A stretch of DNA of 64,000 bases from Halococcus salsus (GTDB lineage Archaea; Halobacteriota; Halobacteria; Halobacteriales; Halococcaceae). This document shows positions 865 through 5,543 of this stretch, in pieces; positions within the stretch are counted from its first letter, which is position 1; each line of letters opens with the position of its first letter. A program made the position numbers and the translations under genes. The stretch covers positions 1,043,216-1,107,215 of the forward strand of contig NZ_JAAAJC010000001.1 in NCBI RefSeq assembly GCF_009900715.1, written 5' to 3'. A model generated the notes under the pieces. That model was given only the letters and a program-made list of their open reading frames with translations. It was not told where the DNA came from and searched no databases.

Positions 865-956
865 GTCCTGACTCTCGGGCGACGGGAGTAAACTCCACCG
901 GCCTCGGGCGTGGGAATTCCTCAACGACTAAATGCACCAGCCGCCCAGGGGCTTCA

Positions 957-1012
957 TCGGGCGATGGAGTCCGCCTGCCCCAACCGCTGGGTTTCCAGCT
1001 GATGACTCCTTC
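957..1012 (+). promoter_or_regulatory. Fluoride riboswitch (crcB motif)
   Basis: The segment folds as the crcB/fluoride aptamer. P1 pairs GGCG 960-963 with CGCC 972-975. A perfect hairpin GCTGG (986-990)/CCAGC (995-999) closes on a GTTT loop. A six-pair pseudoknot joins GGAGTC 966-971 to GACTCC 1004-1009. The conserved CTGATGACTCCT block (999-1010) and the AACCGCT linker match the known family, including the crystallised Thermotoga aptamer. A TATA-like CTAAATG at 928-934 would start transcription near 955, so the aptamer is the 5' end of the mRNA. It ends about 12 nt before the crcB start codon, which suggests control at ribosome access rather than a distant terminator (inference). Confidence 0.88.
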
Positions 1013-1023
1013 TCCAGCCAGCC

Positions 1024-1428
1024 ATGCCCGACACCCACCCGCTCCGAACGCTCGAATCGGTCGTCCTGATCGCCATCGGCGGCTTCTCCGGCTCGAATCT
1101 CAGATATTTCGTCGCCACGCTGGTCCCGGGACCGGTGGGGACGCTCGCGGTCAACGTCGTCGGGAGCTTCGTGCTCGGGTTCGTCCTCTACGAGGCGATC
1201 TACACGGGGATCCTCGCCGAACGGATGCAGCTGGTCTTCACCACGGGCTTTCTCTCCTCGCTCACGACCTACAGCACGTTCGGCGTTCAAACCGTGCTCC
1301 TCGACACGCCGCTCCTGATGGTCGGGAACGTCGTCGCGACCTACGCTCTCGGTTTCGCAGGCGTGTTCGCGGGGCGTGCGCTCGCCCGCCGTATCGAAAT
1401 CGATCCCGAACGGGGGGCGAGCGCGTGA
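1024..1428 (+). CDS. crcB1: Fluoride channel subunit CrcB (first copy)
   Basis: A 134-residue protein with four predicted membrane helices. It has the Fluc/CrcB signatures: GGFSGSNLRY near the N-terminus, GTLAVNVVGSFVLG in helix 2 and TTYSTF in the break of helix 3. Fluc channels let fluoride leave the cytoplasm and work as antiparallel dimers. Archaea and many bacteria that carry two adjacent crcB genes are thought to form heterodimers. The gene begins directly behind the fluoride riboswitch with no obvious Shine-Dalgarno sequence, and its TGA overlaps the next ATG, so both subunits are translated from one mRNA. Confidence 0.93.
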   Translation: MPDTHPLRTLESVVLIAIGGFSGSNLRYFVATLVPGPVGTLAVNVVGSFVLGFVLYEAIYTGILAERMQLVFTTGFLSSLTTYSTFGVQTVLLDTPLLMVGNVVATYALGFAGVFAGRALARRIEIDPERGASA

Positions 1429-4495: not shown

Positions 4496-5465
4496 TCAGT
4501 CGAGGTCGACGTCGACCCACTCGCCGTCGGCGCGCGCGGACTCGTAGGCGGCCTCGGTGACTGCCGTGACGGCGAGCGCGTCACGCGCCGTCGCGGGCGG
4601 TTCCGACCCGTTCTCGATCGCGGTGATGAACGCTTCCGCCTTGGTGGTCTGGCCCTCGTGGTCGATGTACGGCACGGACTCGGTGTTCTCGGCGTCGATC
4701 TCGGTGACCTGTCGGGGCTCCCACTGGCGGCCGTCGATCGAGACCGCGCCGTCGTCGTCCCAGAGGTGGACGTGCTCGCGAACACACGGCAGGTCCCCCG
4801 AGACCGTGACGTTCGCGGTCGCGCCGTTGGCGAACTCGATCAGTACCGTAGCCTCGCTGTCGACGCGCTCCGCGTCGTCGACGAACGTCATCTTCGAGGA
4901 GACCCGCACGGGGTCGAGGCCGCTGGTCCAGAGCACCGCGTCGAGGAGGTGACTGGTCGGTCCGCCACGCGTCGACGAACCGCGGCAGCCAGTTCTGGGT
5001 GACTTCGGCCGTGATCCACCGGGGTGGCGAGTCGGCGAACCGGTCGCGGGCCGCGATGAAGGAGGGGTTGAGGTGTCGCTGGTAGCCCACCATCAAGGTC
5101 CGATCCGAGGCCTCGAACCGGTCCGCGATCTCCTCCGCGTGACCCAGGTCCGTCGCGAGGGGTTTGTCACAGAAGACGTGGAGGTCGTGGTCGAGCCCCG
5201 CCAGCACCTGCTCGTAGTGGAGGGTGTGGGGCGTGCCGATGAGGATCGCGTCGAGCGCGGTGTCGTCGAGCATCTCCCGGTAGTCGTCGTACAGTGCCTC
5301 GTCGGGCACCGAGAAGGAGTCCGCGGTTCGCTCGCGGCGTTCTTCGTCGATCTCGGTGATGGCGCTCACCGTCGCGTCCCGGTGGCGGTCGAACTGACCG
5401 CCGACGAAGGTTCCGATGTACCCGGTTCCGATGAGACCGACCCGTAGTGGAGTGTCGTCTGTCAC
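4496..5465 (-). pseudogene. Gfo/Idh/MocA oxidoreductase broken by a deletion/frameshift
   Basis: The N-terminal part (GTG start at 5465) reads as a normal NAD(P)-binding Gfo/Idh/MocA protein: GLIGTGYIG Rossmann loop, FCDKPL motif and a helix ending RFVDAWRTD. At about 4950-4957 the frame changes and continues as SHLLDAVLWTSG..., the normal second half through DGEWVDVDLD. Between WRTD and SHLL the family normally carries a roughly 12-residue segment with the GGG...D.G catalytic-loop motif. Here it is missing, and the number of lost bases is not a multiple of three. So this is a deletion plus frameshift rather than a sequencing slip alone. It lies directly downstream of the ABC operon and was probably its third dehydrogenase. 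Confidence 0.8.
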
Positions 5466-5543
5466 CCCTGAGAACGGGGGCGAACACCGCATAAGCGTGG
5501 CGAATCGGCCGCCTCAGCCGGGGTCCCCGATGGGCGTCGGCCG

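Follow-up and report, generated by a model that had tools for sequence, protein, structure and literature searches.

A fluoride riboswitch aptamer immediately upstream of crcB1 in Halococcus salsus and its probable action at the start of translation

Identity and distribution of the aptamer

A putative fluoride-binding RNA lies almost against the start codon of crcB1 in the 64,000-nt stretch of Halococcus salsus DNA analyzed here (the window), which raises the question of the level at which an RNA in such a place would act. Comparison of related loci led us to favor, at a probability of roughly 70%, a fluoride riboswitch that forms nearly the whole 5' leader of the crcB1-crcB2 mRNA and most likely turns translation of crcB1 on.

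In order to evaluate the fluoride aptamer fold claimed in the original prediction, the covariance-model search proposed there was run on the whole window with cmscan. RF01734 (Rfam Fluoride) matched positions 951-1018 of the forward strand with 49.3 bits, above the gathering score of 34 (E 1.2e-10), and the model was covered in full, positions 1-64 of 64. Fluoride was the sole Rfam family above its gathering score in the 64-kb window, with one match. When only 800-1200 was scanned the E-value was 7.8e-13 and no other Rfam family came close, and a genome scan returned one RF01734 match in the whole of H. salsus. Based on this match and on pseudoknot covariation in 65 homologues, the aptamer was assigned to 957-1010 (+). 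It comprises P1 (960-963/972-975, lengthened by G959-U976 and C958-G977), the P3 hairpin (986-990 GCTGG/995-999 CCAGC), a pseudoknot of six pairs (966-971 GGAGTC/1004-1009 GACTCC) and the conserved core CTGATGACTCCT (equal to CUGAUGACUCCU) at 999-1010, within which the linchpin A1002-U1010 falls. All these helices and the conserved block, like the TATA-like element and the ATG, were found where they had been predicted. In Thermotoga petrophila numbering, which we take to correspond as A6 = A964, U38 = U1000, A40-U48 = A1002-U1010 and U41 = U1003, every residue required in the known structures is in place. The A40-U48 linchpin and the importance of U41 are confirmed in PMC11077080. The full-length match and the intact core residues thus bear out the claimed fold, and by these sequence criteria the RNA was confirmed as a fluoride riboswitch aptamer of the RF01734 class.

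The aptamer had been placed 12 nt before the crcB1 ATG; the place held, but the gap is 13 nt when the count begins after T1010, the final T of the core. The gene that follows, crcB1 (1024-1428, +), encodes a 134-aa CrcB/Fluc fluoride channel subunit and is a fluoride-resistance gene (Pfam PF02537, 68.4 bits, E 7.7e-19). It is followed by crcB2 (1428-1784, +), encoding a second subunit of 118 aa (PF02537, 92.5 bits, E 2.5e-26; TIGR00494 above cut-off), whose start overlaps the crcB1 stop as TGATG. Both proteins scored above the Pfam CRCB cut-off, and the archaeal host and the crcB1-crcB2 pair that had been claimed were supported alike, the latter by Pfam. A divergent gene for a DUF456 membrane protein, recognized by its protein domain, occupies 864-382 (-). 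Farther off, at 4496-5492 (-), a Gfo/Idh/MocA-like oxidoreductase recognized by eye seems to be broken into two ORFs in different frames (4581-5492 and 4496-4936), by a frameshift or a sequencing error.

Of 391 genomes in the class Halobacteria, Rfam detected the RNA in 66. About 80 relatives were compared in all, and the main comparison was made on 65 haloarchaeal loci with an aptamer 5' of crcB1. Pseudoknot pairs were formed in 100% of these 65 loci, as compared to 0.34-0.69 once the strands were slid against each other. The third pair occurs as A-U, C-G, G-C and G-U, pairs four to six also vary in a compensating manner, and P1 is kept, a G-C to A-U change included. The distance from the UCCU end of the aptamer to the crcB1 ATG was 10-19 nt in 63 of 65 loci, with a median of 14. 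That the H. salsus copy is a decayed or fortuitous RNA devoid of function is very improbable: relatives do carry lost or decayed copies (aptamer absent at L070 in genome G209, relics at L073 and L085), but the window copy scores 49.3 bits with all core residues intact, and its place and spacing are conserved in the genus.

One large family belonging to the same taxonomic order (loci L033-L067 and L134-L153, for example L061) carries a variant aptamer with the loop AUGGGGCCC and the 3' strand UGACGGUCCCU. In it U41 is replaced by C, the pseudoknot is rebuilt with one G-U pair, and P3 is often long. The variant scores 25-39 bits, mostly below the Rfam cut-off, and a covariance model based on it matched 103 of the 391 genomes as compared to the 66 matched with Rfam. 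U41A abolishes the response of the Bacillus cereus switch (PMC11077080). Aptamer-like leaders GGCCGACGACUCC also precede crcB1 in L044 and in L100:1437-1503 (Halomarina halobia, NZ_CP119992.1); they carry U38C and U41C, plus U7C in Halomarina, with P1 and the pseudoknot largely retained, and may represent either decay or another variant.

Several aptamers were found in other surroundings. L013 is an orphan lacking a nearby crcB, and L007 is an orphan followed by roughly a dozen codons that look like the remains of a crcB1; the matches at L068 and L069, which are without CrcB, are probably due to chance. At L006:1086-1390 (G296), and in a sister copy in G358, a further fluoride aptamer lies 415 nt 5' of the one at crcB. 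The ORF that follows it encodes a 68-aa product that probably crosses the membrane twice and matches no Pfam family, a candidate for a new fluoride-linked small protein. In other archaea of the phylum (L106, L112, L115, L125) aptamers lie 5' of a putative prenyltransferase-like protein (CPDGGYCFYRLNEPNAADTF), and some genomes in this group hold 5-8 fluoride aptamers.

Transcript start and the space before the start codon

The original prediction set the start of transcription at the aptamer itself by means of a TATA-like element. This box, CTAAATG at 928-934 (+), has AT-rich counterparts at equal spacing in the genus and the class. Alignment on GGCGATG revealed AT enrichment at -34 to -30 across the class; all members of the genus have a TATA-like box at about -33 to -31, even though the sequence between box and aptamer is not conserved. 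The centre of an archaeal TATA box usually lies about 25 nt from the transcription start. Because the AT-rich box keeps a fixed distance from the aptamer across the class, the crcB mRNA would begin near A956 (predicted start region 955-958, +), about 4 nt before P1. The leader would then measure about 68 nt and be almost wholly aptamer. The fixed spacing in genus and class thereby lends indirect support to the start that had been proposed.

The best-studied bacterial fluoride switches use a terminator (PMC11077080, PMC13273304). Those of B. cereus and T. petrophila share with the window RNA the aptamer, the pseudoknot and the A40-U48 linchpin, and pass the 3' strand of the pseudoknot into an intrinsic terminator (PMC11077080), whereas no terminator hairpin with a U-run overlapping the aptamer 3' strand was found in the window. 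No T-run of 4 or more occurs at 950-1450, and none of 5 or more between the aptamer and ATG+60 in the 65 loci. A terminator scan of the window stretch returned no terminator-like site, and a sigma-70 scan returned nothing. The claim that no terminator precedes the ATG accordingly held for the window and, by T-run counts, for the class, and the lack of a U-run fits a switch of a non-terminator type. These counts also bear on a transcriptional switch, in which polymerase would halt soon after its start, in the leader or the coding region, when fluoride is absent, through an intrinsic signal or through FttA/aCPSF1, and fluoride would prevent the halt. The bacterial precedent speaks for it, but with no such T-runs, an empty terminator scan and only 10-19 nt from aptamer to ATG, we consider it unlikely, although a factor-dependent stop within the coding region may leave no such trace in the sequence.

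Masking of a Shine-Dalgarno sequence was rejected as a general mechanism since SD-like 4-mers occur in only 7 of 65 aptamer leaders versus 8 of 26 aptamer-less ones. In the window's genus, L014, L016, L020, L022 and L027 have a GGAG able to pair with a CUCC of the aptamer. An upstream ORF read from AUGs within the aptamer (AUG 964 to UGA 1000-1002; AUG 1002 in the frame of crcB2) was likewise rejected; the frame is not kept, as it varies with aptamer length (48-52 nt and more), and the ORF is therefore a coincidence.

Pairing between the aptamer and the start region

Leaders of aptamer-bearing crcB1 genes carry CAGCC at -5 to -1, at about 80% per position, which is complementary to the GGCUG strand of the aptamer. 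AGC(C/T)ATG was present in 37 of 63 aptamer-bearing crcB1 genes and in 0 of 26 crcB1 genes from the same class that lack an aptamer, and it was seen in several families. None of 40 other genes of the window had it. It recurred in 12 of 19 held-out loci, which were fetched later with the variant-aptamer model and nearly all belong to one family, so that they confirm the motif but are not independent. About 40% of the aptamer loci are without AGC(C/T)ATG. L070 (G209), in the window's genus, retains the crcB pair and has lost both the aptamer and the CAGCC before the ATG, which provides a natural control pair. The association also weighs on another reading, namely that nucleases reach the 5' end or leader of the mRNA while the aptamer is unfolded and are kept off by a 5' end folded with fluoride. 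The predicted 5' end lies directly at P1, so folding would bury it, but control of stability would leave the aptamer-linked CAGCC beside the start codon unexplained, and we regard it as slightly more unlikely still than a transcriptional switch.

Folding began at the 3' strand of P3 and extended to ATG+15. In many lineages this predicted a hairpin that joins GGCUGA(U/C)GAC of the aptamer to the bases just 5' of the AUG, for example GGCUGACGG...CGUCAGCC-AUG in L046 and L061 and GGCUGAUG...CAUCAGCC-AUG in L002. As the hairpin uses the 3' side of P3 together with bases of A6-U38, the linchpin and the pseudoknot, it would exclude the ligand-bound fold. Between aptamer strand and leader, the register ending at the ATG gave a pairing of 0.68 across its nine positions, with 0.81-0.95 for the first five, as compared to 0.25-0.53 in all other registers, and 25 of 64 leaders exceeded 95% of their own shuffles. 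For the variant core, duplex energy was better where a locus owned that core than where it did not (p 1e-4; this and all other p-values given here are inflated by the relatedness of the loci), and the complementarity of owning loci exceeded that of aptamer-less leaders (p 8e-5). With the canonical core the contrast between own and other loci was absent (p 0.7), yet its leaders still surpassed aptamer-less ones (p 0.0035). Within one genus, aptamer GAUGAC with leader GUCAUC (L017/L018) is replaced by GACGAC with GUCGUC in L044. Locking of the aptamer was predicted to raise accessibility of the start by a mean of 0.19, as compared to 0.11 with shuffled spacers (p 8e-4). The masking helices differ between lineages.

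Taken as sequence comparisons, these CAGCC data favor a switch that turns translation ON through an anti-start sequence and mostly does without a Shine-Dalgarno motif. The original prediction had held that the switch must act on translation or by an archaea-specific mechanism; translation is indeed favored, but "must" is too strong, with control of mRNA stability and an early factor-dependent stop each keeping a small probability. Control could also be translational with CAGCC as an inherited leader or a start-context preference that does not pair, the aptamer blocking or exposing the nearby start sterically. Related loci do share ancestry, only 4-5 bases pair in many leaders and the window's own pairing is weak. 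The motif is nonetheless found in 0 of 26 aptamer-less crcB1 genes and 0 of 40 other genes while occurring in several families, the complementarity tracks the variant core, and L044 carries a compensating change. This explanation is therefore given a minor share, larger than that of the transcriptional one.

In the window the leader at 1011-1023 (+) is the candidate anti-aptamer, that is, the expression platform, and holds the CAGCC specific to aptamer-bearing crcB1 genes at 1019-1023, adjoining the ATG, and a second CCAGC at 1014-1018. It pairs only as GCUG (998-1001) with CAGC, 4 bp at about -5 kcal/mol, because the P3 strand reads CCAGCUG. The predicted accessibility gain was 0.28, which was not significant versus shuffles (p 0.20). 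Another pairing was found post hoc. The start region CCAUGCCCGA (1022-1031, +) is complementary to UCGGGC(G)AUGG at 957-967, made up of the 5' strand of P1 and the first pseudoknot bases, and the duplex, at -15.7 kcal/mol, covers the AUG. This energy was matched neither by any of 40 other starts in the window (best -9.7) nor by any of 26 aptamer-less crcB1 starts. Within the genus the helix is common only to the near-identical L015, and it is not favored in the whole-transcript ensemble, where A1024 and U1025 are mostly unpaired. For these reasons it is put forward as a lead only for a mask over the start.

Translational control by way of the start region would proceed as follows. When fluoride is absent, one of two aptamer strands would pair around the AUG, either UGAUGAC together with the 3' side of P3 or AUGG together with the 5' strand of P1, and ribosomes would be kept away by the pairing. 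Fluoride would lock the pseudoknot and the A40-U48 linchpin, thus occupying the aptamer strands, leaving the start region free and allowing CrcB1 to be made. Synthesis of CrcB2 would follow through translational coupling at the TGATG overlap. As a Shine-Dalgarno sequence is usually absent, the start region itself would be the controlled element. For H. salsus we infer the ON direction, the translational level and the identity of the masking helix.

Relation to known switches and significance

The crcB motif was described from bacteria and archaea (Weinberg 2010; PMC2864571). The window RNA shares with the RF01734 family the full aptamer, the core residues and the site upstream of crcB, and differs in its haloarchaeal host and in a platform that consists of a very short leader without a terminator. 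The fluoride switches of Burkholderia pseudomallei and Pseudomonas syringae, named translational variants (PMC13273304), likewise have no terminator, with control proposed at translation. The haloarchaeal loci differ from them in that an SD-like motif is found in only 7 of 65 aptamer leaders, and therefore the surroundings of the start codon, rather than a Shine-Dalgarno sequence, would be masked.

The Thermococcus kodakarensis fluoride switch is described as "presumably regulating the translation" in the passages of PMC8241225 and PMC11549558 that cite Speed 2018. Both switches are thus archaeal, natural and, as far as those passages go, presumed translational. T. kodakarensis is a hyperthermophile and its RNA sits upstream of TK0513, not directly of crcB (PMC4247193), whereas the window RNA directly precedes crcB1. 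Since that report came earlier, a translational fluoride switch in haloarchaea would not be the first in archaea. A 2021 paper names the T. kodakarensis switch as the only experimentally established natural archaeal riboswitch (PMC8241225), and our literature search turned up no work on haloarchaeal fluoride switches. The aptamer class is already known in both domains, and what would be new, if confirmed, is the haloarchaeal platform. A distinct platform of this kind, with a transcript starting at the aptamer, 10-19 nt to the AUG, CAGCC as an anti-start that pairs with the P3/core strand, control of start access largely without a Shine-Dalgarno sequence and the U41C variant in one large family, is proposed tentatively, at somewhat short of even odds.

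Translation in haloarchaea often proceeds with no Shine-Dalgarno sequence or with a dispensable one. For this reason a natural switch acting by concealment of the start region would, if true, be of value in showing RNA control of initiation in haloarchaea. It would also offer a ready-made natural inducible element for haloarchaeal genetics.
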